Assembly: GCA_008636105.1 (NCBI GenBank)
Contig: VSDH01000001.1
Location: 1 to 64,000 of the forward strand
From: Candidatus Scalindua sediminis
Lineage (GTDB): Bacteria; Planctomycetota; Brocadiia; Brocadiales; Scalinduaceae
DNA: 64,000 bases
Reading direction: 5' to 3'
Shown: piece by piece, positions 20,483-27,705 of the stretch
Layout: every line of letters begins with the position of its first letter
How positions within the stretch are numbered: position 1 is the first letter of the stretch
Program-made: the position numbers and the translations under genes
Notes under the pieces: model-generated
The model's input: only the letters and a program-made list of their open reading frames with translations
What the model was told of the DNA's origin: nothing
Databases searched by the model: none

Positions 20483-20551
20483 GTTCCCACGTAGAACGTG
20501 GGAACGAGTTAACGTAGAACGTGGGAACGAGTTAACGTAGAACGTGGGAAC
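20483..20551. repeat. REP-like palindrome right of RAYT, with tandem partial copies
   Basis: A full hairpin identical to 19685-19707 occupies 20483-20505. It is followed by two 23-bp tandem units (20506-20528 and 20529-20551), each reading GAGTTAACGTAGAA then CGTGGGAAC, that is, the right half of the hairpin plus a linker. The array abuts the 5' end of the transposase gene. Confidence 0.85.
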
Positions 20552-20630
20552 GAGTTATTTTGTTCCTGTTTGAATGTACTCTGGTATTGTAAAAATTTAT
20601 CCAAAGAATAGTAAACTATAAAACTAGAAA

Positions 20631-21821
20631 TTACAATTGCTTATTACTCAGTTGTTGAGTTGGATTATTGATATCTGGCAGCAGGAAAACCAACAGTCCT
20701 GCTATGGGTACCAGGTATGCTACAACCCCTAACGACGTTGCCATACTATATCGATCCGCAATACTTCCGATTATGGGGAGCATAAGCCCGGCAGCACCCC
20801 AGACAAGTCCCATCGAAATGCCTGAAACAGAACTAGCCATGTCCGGGCATAATCTTTGAACTATTAATACATTAACGGCAGAAGCTGCAAATATAACCAT
20901 ACCACTTACGCCTAATAATACTATAGAAAGAGTTCCGCTTGAATCTAAAAACCATATAAGTAATGGACACGCAAAGATTGAGGAACATGCTATTACTATT
21001 TTCCTGTTTATTCTATCTGCCAGATATCCTCCTATCAAACCGCCAATGCTCCCGCTAATCAGGAAAATGGATATAGCTATTCCACCCTTCTGCATTGAGA
21101 TTCCTTTTTCTGTAAAAAGTATTGACATAAAACTAATGAAACTCGTAATGACGATTGACCGGATAAACATTATTAAAAACATAATCCACAACGGCCGCGA
21201 AGTTCTCGCAAAAAGTACTTTCAAACCTGACAGACTTACATTACTCTTACTGACGGGAATTCCGGGCAGTATCTTAATCAATATTAGTGCCAGGATTACA
21301 CCGGGTAGAGACAAAAACCATAACTTGCTGAATCCGTGTAATGAAACAATCAACGTAATAACAAATGGCGCTCCGGCCAGTCCAATGCATCCCACCATAA
21401 GGAAGATAGACATCTGGAACGTGGACCTGTTTTGGCTTAAACCGGCTACTGTTGCTGCTCCATTAGGATGAAAGGCCGCCACACCTGATGCCCCGATCAT
21501 GAGCATTAAGACCAGGACAATGAAGTTTGGAGCAAAGCAAATACTACTCAAGAATATTGCAGAACATAAGACACCGGATACAACAAAAAAATGTTTCTTA
21601 TTAAATCTGTCACCGAGAAAGCCGAATACGGGTTGCAAGATCGAGCCAAACACAGCCAATACCGTGGGCAATACAGACACCTGTGTTATTGTTAAATGGA
21701 GACTGGTTTGAAAGTAGGACAAAAGCGGAATTAGGAAGCCGGCATAGAAATCGTTAAAGAGGTGGGCAAACGTTAAGAGGACTATTGATGTAGATAAAAA
21801 TCTACCATTGTTTTTTACCAT
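20631..21821 (-). CDS. MFS transporter, fosmidomycin-resistance (Fsr)-like
   Basis: The 396-residue integral membrane protein has about 12 hydrophobic helices. The N-terminal LTFAHLFNDFYAGFLIPLLSYF and the loop motif GFLGDRFNKKHFF (MFS motif A) fit the Fsr-like branch. GVAAFHPNGAATVA is another conserved element of that branch. Such proteins export small molecules by proton antiport. The natural substrate cannot be read from the sequence. It is transcribed towards the RAYT locus and starts 29 bp beyond the 3' end of trpS. Confidence 0.85.
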   Translation of the reverse strand: MVKNNGRFLSTSIVLLTFAHLFNDFYAGFLIPLLSYFQTSLHLTITQVSVLPTVLAVFGSILQPVFGFLGDRFNKKHFFVVSGVLCSAIFLSSICFAPNFIVLVLMLMIGASGVAAFHPNGAATVAGLSQNRSTFQMSIFLMVGCIGLAGAPFVITLIVSLHGFSKLWFLSLPGVILALILIKILPGIPVSKSNVSLSGLKVLFARTSRPLWIMFLIMFIRSIVITSFISFMSILFTEKGISMQKGGIAISIFLISGSIGGLIGGYLADRINRKIVIACSSIFACPLLIWFLDSSGTLSIVLLGVSGMVIFAASAVNVLIVQRLCPDMASSVSGISMGLVWGAAGLMLPIIGSIADRYSMATSLGVVAYLVPIAGLLVFLLPDINNPTQQLSNKQL

Positions 21822-21850
21822 TCCAATTGTGTGTGAATTTCATAACCTGG

Positions 21851-22828
21851 TTATCTCAATCCCATTAGCGATCTTACTTCATCCATCGTTTCTTCTGCCA
21901 TTTTTTTACATTTTTCAGCACCCGTATGAAGGATGTCAATGACACAGTCAGGGTTATTAATTAATTCCAGGCTTTTCTCTCTTATTGGTTCAAGTTCTTT
22001 AATCATGTTGTCTGATAGGATTTTTTTACAATCAATACAACCTATCTCTGCAGTTCTACATTCTTTATTAACTCTGTCTATCTCAGATTCTTTTGAAAAG
22101 TATTTATGCAGAGTGAAAAGGTTACAAATATCAGGGTTTCCCGGATCATGTCTTCTTTTCCTGTTTTCATCAGTTACTGCCCTGGACAATTTTTTCCAGA
22201 TAGTATCAGGTGCTTCGATAAGAGATATGTAATTATTCGTGCTTTTACTCATTTTAGTCTTACCATCCAGTCCCATAATTCTGGGTGCATTTGAAAGAAT
22301 ATGTTGAGGTTCAGGGAAAAATTCTCCATATTTCGCATTAAACTTTCTTGCTATCTCACGTGACAGCTCGATATGTTGAACCTGATCCTCACCAACTGGT
22401 ACTGCACAGCCCTTATATAGTAAAATATCAGCTGTCTGGAGCACAGGATAATCAAATAAACCTACATTAACATTCTTTTCATTCTGCCCTGCCTTATCTT
22501 TAAATTGTGTCATTCTTTCAAGATGTCCCATAGGTGTAAGTGTATTAAGTATCCATGTCAACTCCGTATGTTCCGGAACATGAGACTGTACAAAAATAAT
22601 ACAACGGTCTGGATCCAAACCTGCGCCCATATTCACCGCGGCAGCATTAATGATTCTCTTCTGTATTTGTCCTGGATCGTACTCAATCGTTACTGCATGG
22701 TAGTCTACTATTGAAAATATACAATCATAATCATCCAGAAGCTTAACCCAATTCTTAATTGCACCCAGATAGTTTCCAATATGAACATCACCGCTTGGTT
22801 GGATACCACTAAATAGACGTTTTTTCAT
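21851..22828 (-). CDS. trpS: Tryptophanyl-tRNA synthetase
   Basis: This class I synthetase has 325 residues. The start KKRLFSGIQPSGDVHIGNYLGAIKNW contains the HIGH-like motif (HIGN). The second signature is KMSKS in MGLDGKTKMSKSTNNYI. GEDQVQHIELSREIARKFN is the usual helix for Trp-AMP and subunit contacts. It starts 2 bp after the stop of the aminotransferase gene and is therefore translationally coupled to it. No T-box or tRNA-like leader is visible, so regulation probably follows the upstream gene. Confidence 0.97.
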   Translation of the reverse strand: MKKRLFSGIQPSGDVHIGNYLGAIKNWVKLLDDYDCIFSIVDYHAVTIEYDPGQIQKRIINAAAVNMGAGLDPDRCIIFVQSHVPEHTELTWILNTLTPMGHLERMTQFKDKAGQNEKNVNVGLFDYPVLQTADILLYKGCAVPVGEDQVQHIELSREIARKFNAKYGEFFPEPQHILSNAPRIMGLDGKTKMSKSTNNYISLIEAPDTIWKKLSRAVTDENRKRRHDPGNPDICNLFTLHKYFSKESEIDRVNKECRTAEIGCIDCKKILSDNMIKELEPIREKSLELINNPDCVIDILHTGAEKCKKMAEETMDEVRSLMGLR

Positions 22829-22830
22829 GA

Positions 22831-24009
22831 TTATAATTTCAGCCTACTTATCCTTTTGGCTGCTTCTTCTGTTTGTTTTATGCCTGGAACGAGTGCAAAA
22901 CGTACGAATCCTTCACCAGGATTGTGACCATCAAAACTTTCATCACTAATCCACTCTCCAGGTGTGGTGACAATTGCTATTTCTGGCTCCAGCAATTTTA
23001 TTGCAAAATCCAAAGATGTCATCCCTTCGGGAACCCTCTGCCAGATATAGATTGTCGCTTCAGGCGTACAATCCGCCAATCCTATACCGGTTAATGCCTT
23101 GATTAATATATCTCTCTTAACCTTATACTCTTCTCTCATAACTTGAACATGGGTTTCGTCATTTAGTCCGGCAATGGCGCCATCCTGGATAAAGGTGGCT
23201 GTACCTGAGTCAATATTAGTCTTTACCTTTTTAAATACGTCAACAATTCGACTGTCACCAGCAACCCATCCTATTCGATAACATGTCATAGCGCTTCTTT
23301 TTGACATAGAATGCACCGCTGCTACACCCTCAGTCGTAATCTCAAGTATGCTATGCGGTGGCTTGCCGAAATAAATATCTATATATGCCTCATCAGAAAC
23401 TATGATAATATCGTTCTCCTGGCCAAAGGCGACAATCTCTTTTAGGAAATCAGTGGAAGCAGTAACACCACTGGGACTATTTGGATAATTGGCCCACATT
23501 ATCTTAGCCTTCTTGCATACATCTTTTGGGATTGAACTCAAGTCTGGTAAATATTTGTTTTCCGGTAATAAAGGGACAAAAAAAGGAATTCCTTCGGCAA
23601 AAAGCGTCCCTCTTGTATAAGGCGGATAACCCGGTGTGGGGATAATGACATAATCTCCCGGATCGACAAACCCCTCTGCAAAATTAAAAATGCCCTCCTT
23701 CGAACCCAGGGTAGAACTAACCTCTGTGGCAGGATCAAGGGTAACACCAAATCTTCTCTTCATCCATTTGCATATGGTTTCCCTGAATTCTGGTGAACCA
23801 ATGTAGCTCGGATAACCTGAACATTTTCTTTTCTCAATTCCTTCCTTAGTGCCTTCACGTACAATTTCAGGCGTGGGAGACGTAGGATCACCCACACCAA
23901 AATCAATAGGCTCAATACCTTTTTTTTTTAACTTTTCAACCTGCTTATCAACCTCAGCGAATGCATAAGCGCCAATTGATTGAACTCTCTTAGACGGTAC
24001 AATTTCCAA
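22831..24009 (-). CDS. dapL: Class I/II aminotransferase, LL-diaminopimelate aminotransferase-like
   Basis: This 392-residue PLP enzyme is closest in pattern to the LL-DAP aminotransferase/DapL group. That group converts tetrahydrodipicolinate directly to LL-diaminopimelate for lysine and peptidoglycan. Visible motifs are FGVGDPTSPTP, the PLP-phosphate contacts GSKEGIFNF, ANYPNSPSG, SDEAYIDIYF and the Schiff-base lysine in HSMSKRSAMTCYRIG. The start is TTG 24009, with AGGAGG 8 nt upstream. Aspartate-type aminotransferases share these motifs, so the DAP role is likely but not certain. It forms an operon with trpS and lies downstream of aroF on the same strand. Confidence 0.8.
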   Translation of the reverse strand: MEIVPSKRVQSIGAYAFAEVDKQVEKLKKKGIEPIDFGVGDPTSPTPEIVREGTKEGIEKRKCSGYPSYIGSPEFRETICKWMKRRFGVTLDPATEVSSTLGSKEGIFNFAEGFVDPGDYVIIPTPGYPPYTRGTLFAEGIPFFVPLLPENKYLPDLSSIPKDVCKKAKIMWANYPNSPSGVTASTDFLKEIVAFGQENDIIIVSDEAYIDIYFGKPPHSILEITTEGVAAVHSMSKRSAMTCYRIGWVAGDSRIVDVFKKVKTNIDSGTATFIQDGAIAGLNDETHVQVMREEYKVKRDILIKALTGIGLADCTPEATIYIWQRVPEGMTSLDFAIKLLEPEIAIVTTPGEWISDESFDGHNPGEGFVRFALVPGIKQTEEAAKRISRLKL

Positions 24010-24100
24010 ATTTAGAGCCTCCTATATTATTAACTCTAAAAATACCTTTTTTGTAAATTTGGGCTGTGACATCCTTTTAGATTAGCCTTTTTGGATTTAA

Positions 24101-24259
24101 CTATTTTTTGGAGGGATCAGTAATAGTTTTTTTGCTAACAGGGATTTCTTTAACTCCGATTGCGAGGACATTAGTCTCTTTCGCAGCTTCAGATGTTAAA
24201 GAAATCTTAGGTGATTGGCGAGCATATTTTTCTATAAGTTTATTTGTACCCTCTTTGCC
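24101..24259 (-). other. 52-codon open frame directly after the aroF stop, without a start codon
   Basis: Immediately after the aroF TAA (24260-24262) the same frame stays open for 52 codons to a TAG at 24101-24103. The translation looks protein-like: NKLIEKYARQSPKISLTSEA, then AKETNVLAIGVKEIPVSKKT. It contains no ATG, GTG, TTG or CTG. It could be a C-terminal extension reached by readthrough, a gene fragment, a small gene with a rare start, or chance. aroF already has the length expected for its family. Confidence 0.35.
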
Positions 24260-25273
24260 TTAAATATCTCTTCCTACGGCCCTTGCGATTGCTCTCGATT
24301 CTGTCATTAAATTCTCAAATTCCTCGATCGTTATTGTCTGAGGACCATCAACAAAAGCCTTTTCCGGATCCGGATGAACTTCTAATAACAACCCATCAGC
24401 GCCAACTGCGATTGCCCCTTTAGACATTGGTTTCACGAGATCCCGCACTCCCGTGCCATGACTGGGGTCAACAATTATGGGAAGATGTGTTAGTTTCTTA
24501 AGCTGTGGTACTATACTTAAAGACAACGTAAACCTTGTATGGTTCTCAAATGTTCTTATTCCTCTCTCACATAAGATAACATTTGGATTTCCATGTGAAA
24601 GTATATATTCACCAGCAAGTAAAAATTCATCCATAGTAGCTGACATACCACGCTTCAGAATTACGGGCTTTTTACATTCACCGACTGCTTGTAGCAACAG
24701 GAAATTTGCCATGTTTCTTGTTCCTATTTGTAGCACATCGACATAGCTGCTTACCAGCTTTACATGTTCCGGACTTAGCACTTCTGTAACCACAGCTAAT
24801 CCCGTAGCTTCCCTGGCCTTTGCAAGATATTCAAGACCCTCTTCCCTTAAGCCCTGAAAAGAATAAGGATTGGTCCGCGGCTTAAATGCCCCTCCCCTAA
24901 GCGCTATGGCTCCTGCTTTTTTTACCTTATCTGCTATAAAATTAATCTGGTCCTGACTTTCCACGGCACAAGGACCCGCAATTACGCTTACTTTATTGCC
25001 CCCAATTATCTGATCGTTAATTTTAATTTCAGTATCGGTCTTTTTTACTTCTCTACTAGCTATTTTGTATGGAGCTAAGATAGGGACAGCCTTTTCCACA
25101 CCCGGTATTGCACTCCAAAATTCTGGAGAAACATCTCGCTTATCGCCTATTGCAGCAATCACTTTCCTGTTAGTACCTTCTAACAATATTGCCTTACAGC
25201 CAACTTCCTCAACTTTTTCAATCACATGATCAATCTCGCTTTTTCCAACATTCGGCTTCATTACAATTATCAT
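24260..25273 (-). CDS. aroF: 3-deoxy-7-phosphoheptulonate (DAHP) synthase, type I-beta
   Basis: The enzyme condenses phosphoenolpyruvate and erythrose 4-phosphate, the first step of aromatic amino-acid synthesis. The N-terminal about 70 residues (IIVMKPNVGKSEIDHVIEKV) form the ferredoxin/ACT-like regulatory domain known from the TM0343 type. The TIM barrel has SVIAGPCAVES, LRGGAFKPRTNPYSFQG, DVLQIGTRNMANFLLL, LKRGMSATMDEFL and IIVDPSHGTG. At 337 residues it is full length. Upstream lies what looks like a leader-peptide attenuator (25309-25453) that would couple transcription to charged aromatic tRNAs, while the ACT-like domain would give feedback on the enzyme. Confidence 0.96.
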   Translation of the reverse strand: MIIVMKPNVGKSEIDHVIEKVEEVGCKAILLEGTNRKVIAAIGDKRDVSPEFWSAIPGVEKAVPILAPYKIASREVKKTDTEIKINDQIIGGNKVSVIAGPCAVESQDQINFIADKVKKAGAIALRGGAFKPRTNPYSFQGLREEGLEYLAKAREATGLAVVTEVLSPEHVKLVSSYVDVLQIGTRNMANFLLLQAVGECKKPVILKRGMSATMDEFLLAGEYILSHGNPNVILCERGIRTFENHTRFTLSLSIVPQLKKLTHLPIIVDPSHGTGVRDLVKPMSKGAIAVGADGLLLEVHPDPEKAFVDGPQTITIEEFENLMTESRAIARAVGRDI

Positions 25274-25308
25274 ATATATTCCCCAAAAAACGACTGTCTC
25301 TACTAAAT

Positions 25309-25340
25309 AAAAAAACCCTAAAACTTTTAAGTCTTAGGGC
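25309..25340 (-). terminator. Attenuator terminator in the aroF leader
   Basis: On the minus strand CCCTAAGACTT pairs with AAGTTTTAGGG (plus-strand 25316-25339; 11 bp with one G-U; the innermost pairs would open to form the loop) and is followed by seven U residues (25309-25315). It lies 27 nt after the leader-peptide stop and 36 nt before the aroF start, so it can end transcription before the gene. GCCCUAA in its ascending arm is also complementary to UUAGGGC at the end of the leader-peptide frame. Confidence 0.85.
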
Positions 25341-25366
25341 TCTTAAGGAAATCACGTAAACTATCA

Positions 25367-25453
25367 TTAAAAGGCCCTAACAACCTCCTTTTCCTGCCAA
25401 TAACTAAAGCGTAAAAAATCGAAATTACTGTTCAATAAGTAGGTTCCTTTCAT
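25367..25453 (-). CDS. aroL-leader: Leader peptide of the aroF attenuator
   Basis: A 28-codon frame starts at ATG 25453, 7 nt after an AGGG motif, and ends at TAA 25367-25369. Seven of 28 residues are aromatic: Tyr5, Phe11, Phe13, Phe16, Tyr18, Trp19 and Phe28, with the cluster FDFLRFSYW in the middle. The last codons (GTT AGG GCC TTT) contain UUAGGGC, which can pair with the 5' arm of the terminator to form an antiterminator. This is the architecture of classic amino-acid attenuators such as those of pheA and trp. The gene name is a descriptive label, not an established symbol. Confidence 0.8.
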   Translation of the reverse strand: MKGTYLLNSNFDFLRFSYWQEKEVVRAF

Positions 25454-25473
25454 TTTATACCCTAAAACAAGAG

Positions 25474-25500
25474 TTTATATTAACAATATTCGATTGTCAA
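25474..25500 (-). promoter_or_regulatory. Sigma-70-type promoter of the aroF leader
   Basis: On the minus strand TTGACA (25495-25500) and TATAAA (25474-25479) are separated by 15 bp. Transcription would start near 25466, leaving about 13 nt before the leader-peptide ATG at 25453. The -35 is consensus; the spacing is a little short. Confidence 0.65.
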
Positions 25501-25558
25501 GCTCATTTTTAAGGTCAAATATTATTACATTTTTAAGCTCAAAATAGTCAGAAATCAG

Positions 25559-25586
25559 TTGAACGTAAATTCTTAGATGTTATAAT
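25559..25586 (+). promoter_or_regulatory. Sigma-70-type promoter of plsC
   Basis: TTGAAC (25559-25564) and TATAAT (25581-25586) with a 16-bp spacer precede a strong AAGGAGAG Shine-Dalgarno and the ATG at 25613. It is divergent from the aroF promoter, about 60 bp away. Confidence 0.65.
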
Positions 25587-25612
25587 GTGCTCTGATATAA
25601 AAGGAGAGACAT

Positions 25613-26509
25613 ATGGAAAAAACAGTTAAATCTGGAGAATTAGTTAAGAGTAAAAGTTCCCGGAAGTTGTTGGTTGGACAAATTACCATTCTCACATTAC
25701 TCTTTACTGTGGGAAAAGTTACAACCATAATTTCTATCCAAAAGGTAATGATGCTAACTGGCTTATGGACAATCTTCCTGCTGGGAACAATAGTATTAAA
25801 GAATAAAGCATTGAGTTCAATCATTACAAACAGAAATTATCTAACTTACAAACTTAATAAAGAAAACAGTTCTAACATATTAAAATTTCTGGATGTTACT
25901 TTCTTTTTAATCATAAAATATACAGATGTCTTATTTCTCAAGGTATTTTTCAAAATAGAAGCCATAAATACTCACTTAATCCCGAAAGAAGGCGCAATAA
26001 TAATAACCTCAAACCATACTAGCCATTTGGATGGAATGATCTTGCAAGCTACATTTCCAAAAAGAATAACCTACATGATGTTATTAAAGAATTACGAAAC
26101 CTGGGGGAAATGGTTTTACAAATCTCTACACGTAATACCCTTAAAAGAACAAGGTATTAACTGTAATGCATTAAAAGAAGGCTTAGAATTACTAAGAAAC
26201 AATGGGGCCCTCGCCATATTTCCGGAAGGAAAGGTAAGTCTTGATGGTAATCTACAAGATGGAAAACACGGTATCAGTTTCCTGGCAATCAAAAGTAAAG
26301 CAACAGTAGTTCCTGCTTATATTGATGGGGCATTTGAAGTATTACCTGCCGGGGCTTTTTCCCCTCGCTTCTTCAGAAAAATAAAAGTAACATATGGAGA
26401 GCCAATCTATTTTAACAATAAATATATCAATGAAAGAAAAACCCGAGAGCAGGCTACATATAAGATAATGGGGGAAATAAAGAAATTGTCTTGTCTCAAA
26501 GATGCTTAA
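25613..26509 (+). CDS. plsC: 1-acyl-sn-glycerol-3-phosphate acyltransferase (PlsC-like)
   Basis: The 298-residue protein acylates lysophosphatidate or a related acceptor in phospholipid synthesis. Residues about 18-65 contain two hydrophobic segments that anchor it in the inner membrane. The acyltransferase block begins with the H-x4-D motif in ITSNHTSHLDGMIL, continues with WGKWFYKSLHVIPLKEQG, and has the acceptor-binding FPEGKVSLDGNL and VVPAYIDGAFEVLP. The N-terminal extension is longer than in minimal PlsC proteins. It is a single gene, divergent from aroF and convergent with the PQQ-repeat genes. Confidence 0.88.
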   Translation: MEKTVKSGELVKSKSSRKLLVGQITILTLLFTVGKVTTIISIQKVMMLTGLWTIFLLGTIVLKNKALSSIITNRNYLTYKLNKENSSNILKFLDVTFFLIIKYTDVLFLKVFFKIEAINTHLIPKEGAIIITSNHTSHLDGMILQATFPKRITYMMLLKNYETWGKWFYKSLHVIPLKEQGINCNALKEGLELLRNNGALAIFPEGKVSLDGNLQDGKHGISFLAIKSKATVVPAYIDGAFEVLPAGAFSPRFFRKIKVTYGEPIYFNNKYINERKTREQATYKIMGEIKKLSCLKDA

Positions 26510-26526
26510 GAGAACGTTTCTTAGTA

Positions 26527-27705
26527 TTAATTGCCAATTGCATACAAGTGATTATCATTCGAGCCAAAATATACAGTTCCATCTGAACCTATTAATGGCG
26601 ACGACTCAATCCAACCATTAGTTTGATAACTCCACTTAAGTTTTCCTTCCGAGTCTATGGCATAAAGACTACCATCGCTCGAACCGATGTAAACAGTTCC
26701 ATCAGAATCCACTGCTGGTGATGACTCAATCCAACCATTAGTCTTGAAGCTCCATCTAAGAGTGCAGTCAGAATTTATTGCGTATACTTTTTTATCGTAA
26801 GAGCCAAAATATATTGTTCCGTCATTACCTATTGCGGGTGAAGACTGAATAGTCTTTCCCGTATTAACTATCCATTTTCTCTTACCATCTATCCATTTTA
26901 TCTCACCATTTGGATTAATTCCATAAACCCTTCCGTTCTCTGAACCAATATAAACGGTGCCGTCTTCATTGACTGCAGGGGAGGAAAAAGAAGCATAAAC
27001 ATTGCTGCCTATCCTACGCTTCCATTTTTCAGATCCATCAGGGTTCAGGGCATAGATAATTCCTTTGGTTATCATGAAGCAAATCATACCATCTGGTCCA
27101 ATTGATGGTGATGAACTTATAGGGCTATAAAGTTTATTCGTGTAAGTCCATTTCAGATTTCCTGACAAATCTACCGCATACAGACTGCCATCACCTGAAC
27201 CAAAATAAATAATGCCATGCTTTCCTACAGTTGGTGAGGAAAAAATAGCTCCTTCTGTTTCATAATCCCATTTGAGGCTTCCATTTGGATTTACCGCATA
27301 CAGTTTTTTATCTCTTGAGCCAAAATAAATGGTACCGTCATATCCGATGGCAGGAGATGAGGTAACTTCGTCTCCCGTCTTGAAGCTCCACTTGAGTTTA
27401 CCTTCTGGACTAACTGCATATAGTTTTCCATCCACCGAACCGAAATATATTGTGTCATCCAAACCAATTGCCGGCGACGACGTAATCCTTTTTTCAACCT
27501 TAAAACTCCATTTAAGAGTGTTTGCCTGAGCCCCTTTATAAGGACTAACCCCGGTGTGTCTTAAATCACGCCGAAACATCTGCCAGGGAGGATCAACCAG
27601 CTCGGCGTTGGAAGTACAAATCCCGTAGCTGGTAATTACTATAAATGAAAACGTAACCCATAAAACAATAAATCTTTGCAAAAATGTTTTACTAGACATT
27701 TTCAT
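26527..27705 (-). CDS. Secreted PQQ-type beta-propeller protein 1
   Basis: The 392 residues begin with a signal peptide (hydrophobic about 11-28, cleavage probably near CTSNAE). The mature start PPWQMFRRDLRHTGVSPYKG is the usual WxMFRxDxxHTG entry strand. About eight or nine repeats of roughly 40 residues follow, each of the form SSPAIG-DGTIYFGS-DGKLYAV-G-LKWSFKT. This predicts an eight-bladed propeller of the PQQ-dehydrogenase/BamB fold. No calcium- or quinone-binding residues or catalytic Asp can be assigned, so a scaffold or binding role is more likely than a dehydrogenase. It forms a tandem with the paralogue upstream (30-bp gap). Confidence 0.85.
   Translation of the reverse strand: MKMSSKTFLQRFIVLWVTFSFIVITSYGICTSNAELVDPPWQMFRRDLRHTGVSPYKGAQANTLKWSFKVEKRITSSPAIGLDDTIYFGSVDGKLYAVSPEGKLKWSFKTGDEVTSSPAIGYDGTIYFGSRDKKLYAVNPNGSLKWDYETEGAIFSSPTVGKHGIIYFGSGDGSLYAVDLSGNLKWTYTNKLYSPISSSPSIGPDGMICFMITKGIIYALNPDGSEKWKRRIGSNVYASFSSPAVNEDGTVYIGSENGRVYGINPNGEIKWIDGKRKWIVNTGKTIQSSPAIGNDGTIYFGSYDKKVYAINSDCTLRWSFKTNGWIESSPAVDSDGTVYIGSSDGSLYAIDSEGKLKWSYQTNGWIESSPLIGSDGTVYFGSNDNHLYAIGN

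Follow-up and report, generated by a model that had tools for sequence, protein, structure and literature searches.

The aroF gene of 'Candidatus Scalindua sediminis' is preceded by what is very probably a classical ribosome-mediated transcription attenuator that would control aroF. The window (the whole 64,000-nt stretch that we analyzed, positions 1 to 64,000 of contig VSDH01000001.1, from a genome of 2.96 Mb) carries all the parts of such an element, in the order promoter, leader, terminator, and aroF on the minus strand. The gene itself (24260..25273, minus strand) encodes a class I-beta 3-deoxy-7-phosphoheptulonate (DAHP) synthase of 337 amino acids, which scores above cut-off for TIGR01361 and NF006421 and is 82 to 88% identical to its orthologues in 'Candidatus Scalindua' genomes, S. 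rubra included, an identity that marks the bacterium as a Scalindua-type anammox relative within Brocadiales. This enzyme opens the pathway to Phe, Tyr, and Trp. What the sequence shows is the parts and their spacing, mutually exclusive predicted folds, recurrence in the phylum, and coding selection in Brocadiaceae. The trp/phe-type plan put forward in a preliminary description of this DNA gains support from the recurrence, from the coding selection, and from a spacing that fits ribosome footprints.

All features of the element lie on the minus strand. The promoter has the -35 box TTGACA (25495..25500), which is kept upstream of aroF in Brocadiales, and, after a 17-nt spacer, the -10 box TAAACT (25472..25477). 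It was the best promoter-like site in a scan of 20500-26600, and the aroF upstream regions of relatives in Brocadiales have TTGACA-17-TAAACT/TAAAAT. The preliminary description had named the same -35 box but paired it with TATAAA at 15 nt, which is the same DNA read two bases off; we prefer TAAACT at 17 nt, as the best site of the region and the register of the relatives. The other parts named there (the 28-codon frame with 7 aromatic residues, AGGG, UUAGGGC, and a terminator with seven U) were all found in the sequence. AGGG, a possible ribosome-binding site (25460..25463), lies 6 nt 5' of the leader ATG at 25453. The leader frame, MKGTYLLNSNFDFLRFSYWQEKEVVRAF and a stop, occupies 25367..25453, and its codons 11-19, FDFLRFSYW (25397..25423), form a regulatory cluster with 5 aromatic codons within 10, which sequence and spacing mark as the predicted stall site. 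TTAGGGC lies inside the frame at 25380-25374. It belongs to segment 2 (AGGUU-G-UUAGGGC-C-UUUUAA, 25367..25386), the putative 5' strand of the antiterminator, which we placed by the ribosome-free RNA fold and conserved alignment columns and which overlaps the final leader codons and the stop. Segment 3, the putative 3' strand (UUAAGA-GCCCUAA-GACUU, 25329..25346), was placed by sequence and the same fold and is common to the antiterminator and the 5' arm of the terminator. The intrinsic terminator (25309..25344) has 15 pairs, including pairs into the U tract, a loop of 4, and seven U; its arms are GCCCTAAGACTT and AAGTTTTAGGG, then seven T on the minus strand (25340-25309), and it is also readable as GCCCUAAGACUU and AAGUUUUAGGG plus seven U. 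It was the strongest terminator-like site in the scan of 20500-26600, and the aroF ATG follows downstream of it at 25273.

The transcript start, leader translation, ribosome stalling, and responses to the individual amino acids are inferred, as follows. Transcription would begin some 10 nt 5' of the leader ATG, with a ribosome entering the 28-codon leader behind the polymerase. With charged Phe-, Tyr-, and Trp-tRNA plentiful, the ribosome would reach the stop (25369-25367) and cover segment 2 (25386-25367), upon which the terminator at 25344-25309 would form and transcription would stop before aroF. With charged aromatic tRNA short, it would stall in FDFLRFSYW, about 20 nt 5' of the segment 2 core, leaving segment 2 to pair with segment 3, so that the terminator would be blocked and DAHP synthase made. 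Across 62 loci the last aromatic codon lies a median of 19 nt from segment 2 (quartiles 17-21, in a calculation that excludes distances below about 12 nt), and segment 2 ends at most 12 nt past the leader stop in 90% of them. This spacing fits ribosome footprints in that segment 2 would be free with the ribosome stalled and covered with the ribosome at the stop.

Folding of the full leader RNA left the terminator intact. For the ribosome-free fold, we set the A site on Trp 19, the last codon of the cluster, and folded the RNA 5' of the terminator 3' arm. The freed RNA of the window was predicted to form one long hairpin, AGGUU-UUAGGGC-UUUUAA pairing with UUAAGA-GCCCUAA-GACUU, at -17.6 kcal/mol (z -3.25 against shuffles), with 17 predicted pairs joining the antiterminator to the terminator arm. 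Since the antiterminator takes up the terminator 5' arm, the terminator would be excluded, and the folding that the preliminary description had proposed as a check yields two mutually exclusive predicted structures. Its pairing of UUAGGGC with GCCCUAA is present, but these 7 bp are only the core of the longer antiterminator; complementarity over 7 bp was matched in 20% of shuffles and is not significant for the window locus by itself, in contrast to the complete antiterminator, whose fold is significant there. In predicted folds of the 62 loci, the freed RNA had z below 0 against shuffles in 57 (mean z -2.45). A protector (1:2) hairpin, which would switch aroF off without translation, is clearly predicted in GC-rich members and is doubtful in the window, where the predicted pairing is partial, by way of an unusual pairing with the leader start.

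Outside Brocadiales, pairing of segment 2 with the terminator arm of its own locus is better than with arms taken from other species' loci (0 of 2000 permutations), and the two thus evolve together. The same arm-swap test gave no signal within Brocadiales, where it is uninformative because the arms are nearly identical. A contiguous-helix score of segment 2 against the terminator arm proved too weak (own 16.2, shuffled 14.3; 18% of loci at 0.05), so that ribosome-free RNA folding was used instead. As for the compensatory stem changes that had been suggested as a further check, the outer antiterminator helix in Brocadiales has four pairs with double changes but only 79% of cells paired, and the terminator is nearly invariant, with one double change and 99% of cells paired in 30 Brocadiales sequences. 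The covariation support in this order is modest, as the stems hardly vary.

One rival explanation is a plain intrinsic terminator behind a small protein gene, with fixed read-through to aroF and a frame that has no sensing role. We consider it very unlikely, although chance aromatic frames speak for it. Dinucleotide shuffling of the 350 nt upstream of aroF in the window, repeated 3000 times, gave an aromatic frame (at least 5 aromatic of 10 codons) alone in 694 cases; such frames are common in AT-rich DNA, and one by itself is weak evidence. The aromatic frame together with a terminator in range arose in 0 of the 3000. We took this combination, an aromatic frame then a terminator in range, as an automatic rule; its thresholds were chosen after the positives were known and were identical for shuffles and controls, and it was passed by 0 of 1310 shuffled upstream regions and by 4 of 221 control genes from the surveyed loci. 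None of these four counts as a real negative, since two proved to be aroF with a longer start call and the others head chorismate mutase-aroF operons in Chloroflexi. Of all the genes that we tested, only aroF or aromatic operons have clusters before them, and the clusters keep a constant distance from the complementary segment in families of very different base composition, both of which speak against a frame without a role. So do other genes of the same genome: neither the two trpE-like genes for chorismate-binding proteins, nor pheA, nor the pair of aroG-type genes for DAHP synthase have such a leader upstream, with 179 nt covered for one of these genes.

The two Chloroflexi loci deserve a description of their own. 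In both (L046, gene at 800; L065, gene at 1931), an aromatic leader and a terminator precede an AroH-type chorismate mutase gene that heads an operon with aroF, and L065 also has pheA, with tyrA downstream. Judged from sequence, an attenuator of the same kind thus appears to stand before longer aromatic operons in a phylum other than Planctomycetota.

Within the class we sampled 58 aroF upstream regions, 29 of which pass the rule. The element is clearest in f5, a family taken as Brocadiaceae from its position in the order: 23 of 27 pass, and all 27 have the terminator. Leaders there include MKHYAVFYYFKYYRGGS (L028), MNILSNNPKHCRFYWVIYYFRYYYKRGGS (L032), and MYFYYNIRCS (L127), each followed by a stop; the UAG stop usually falls within the UUAGGG of the antiterminator segment, and the terminator, GCCCUAAAAC and GUUUUAGGG plus U, comes about 30 nt after it. 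Single-base codon differences among 21 Brocadiaceae leaders are synonymous in 53% of cases when read in the leader frame, against 7% and 31% for the two alternative frames, a pattern that shows coding selection on this counterpart frame. The selection is that on Brocadiaceae leaders; in the family of the window the arrangement is fragile. The other positives of the class are L020 (f3), L138 (f7), and L139, L141, and L142 (f9), the last three with leaders ending in AFWYFYFGSEQEAD and a stop. L138 (G064) also has a second aromatic frame, MFGFENYSFWRWARRGGTES and a stop, past the terminator and about 90 nt before aroF, with its stop overlapping the aroF start (ATGA), which suggests an added translational layer of control.

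In the family of the window, only the window genome passes the rule. S. rubra and two other members keep the terminator, with the leader broken or absent. In 'Candidatus Scalindua rubra' (L006 and L035), a stop splits the leader into MKLENSNFVF and a second frame that begins with the ATG of MYLQEMEVIRAF; the antiterminator segment and terminator are retained. One Scalindua genus of 12 genomes (L007, L008, L010-L017, L019, and L135) has lost promoter, leader, and terminator, and its aroF lies directly behind a PQQ-like beta-propeller gene, with control relaxed or replaced.

The mechanism could accordingly be ancestral and the window copy decaying, with a terminator that acts as in S. rubra and leader control that is no longer sharp. 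We regard this as improbable, even with the leader lost or broken in all other sampled family members and the window cluster loose (5 aromatic codons in 10, against 6-8 in many relatives). The window frame is open, its start, stop, and terminator are intact, the promoter is on consensus, the predicted antiterminator fold is strong, and the 21 nt from cluster to segment 2 is the family norm, all of which speaks against decay.

Outside the class, 33 of 73 usable planctomycete aroF upstream regions pass the rule, in nine families (f27, f53, f57, f61, f67, f70, f75, f76, and f79); examples of their leaders are MTNMIVTNSYFWQFFTYFTGGPGGTA (L176) and MNSAATTYWFWFYFTPTGRGAGGGI (L219), each before a stop. 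About half of planctomycete aroF genes fail it. In named records from outside the class, the rule is passed by 12 planctomycete aroF upstream regions and by no clostridial one; the aromatic frames of low-GC Clostridia are AT-rich noise, none of which passes the rule with a terminator. The comparison of aroF upstream regions that had been called for thus finds leader, antiterminator segment, and terminator recurring in Brocadiaceae, in further families of the same class, and in no fewer than nine families outside it. Phe, Tyr, and Trp codons occur together in 40 of 62 clusters and two of the three in the other 22, which makes plausible the earlier suggestion that one sensor serves all three products.

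Terminator/antiterminator pairs are common to attenuation by ribosomes, T-boxes, riboswitches, and RNA-binding proteins, so the same terminator might in principle answer to one of these other sensors. T-box riboswitches bind uncharged tRNA directly and do not need translation of a leader; those of Firmicutes aromatic genes serve the same physiological aim as the element described here, but no T-box was found at the window locus. Neither the region nor 18 related loci matched the T-box covariance model, and no Rfam family reached its gathering score in either, the sub-threshold matches of the region being at chance level. Another sensor would also leave the conserved aromatic frame unexplained, and we give this possibility even less credence than the plain terminator.

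About 250 nt past aroF lie an LL-diaminopimelate aminotransferase-like gene and trpS, the gene for tryptophanyl-tRNA synthetase (21851-24009, minus strand). If they are co-transcribed with aroF, the attenuator would also control a synthetase that charges one of the tRNAs to which it responds. Past its stop, the aroF frame remains open over about 50 codons (GKEGTNKLIEKYARQ...PSKK, then a stop; window 24109-24259, minus strand); the sequence after the aroF stop differs in relatives, some of which have a flavin-binding oxidase-like gene there.

In Escherichia coli, the pheL-pheA and trpL-trpEDCBA attenuators respond to a single amino acid each and act on a terminal branch. The planctomycete element resembles them in its leader codons for end products, its mutually exclusive antiterminator and terminator, and its putative ribosome sensor; it differs in standing at the common entry step and in that a protector hairpin is predicted in only 40 of 62 loci. 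In multi-amino-acid leaders such as those of ilvB and ilvGMEDA (PMC10272879), too, a single leader has codons for more than one product of the same pathway, there branched-chain and not aromatic amino acids. Closest among known systems is AroR-aroF of Corynebacterium glutamicum, where the AroR leader (Phe-Tyr-Phe) regulates aroF by attenuation and expression rises under Phe limitation, while the supply of Tyr reportedly made no difference (PMC4046766; PMC11802643, which cites Neshat et al. 2014). A short aromatic leader with attenuation directly before a DAHP synthase gene is thus shared, and both the principle and the gene pairing were already known from this system. It belongs, however, to another phylum, and its cluster has Phe and Tyr only, whereas those of Planctomycetota mostly have Phe, Tyr, and Trp. 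The two short leaders may be convergent. What appears to be new, on the genomic comparison, is the phylum-wide distribution and the mixed Phe/Tyr/Trp sensor. The open literature that we searched contains no description of such a leader in Planctomycetes, in agreement with the preliminary description, although some cases might be mentioned by Lopatovskaya et al. 2010 (Mol Biol 44:128) in their comparative survey.

On balance we favor, by a modest margin, the view that a pan-aromatic attenuator at the entry of aromatic biosynthesis is an inheritance of the whole phylum Planctomycetota, with a single leader that responds at once to the charging of tRNA for Phe, Tyr, and Trp. Such an element works only with a ribosome close behind RNA polymerase, and it would then be genomic evidence of transcription-translation coupling in the phylum, anammox bacteria included. 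For the planctomycete Gemmata obscuriglobus, spatial segregation of transcription and translation has been reported (Gottshall et al. 2014, cited in PMC6212462 and PMC5394234), to an extent that is disputed. The recurrence of the element across the phylum argues for coupling at least on the aroF mRNA, and the aroF leader would offer a direct way to test it. For Planctomycetota the element would be a regulatory RNA of a central pathway that annotation has missed, and it makes a prediction testable in cultured members.
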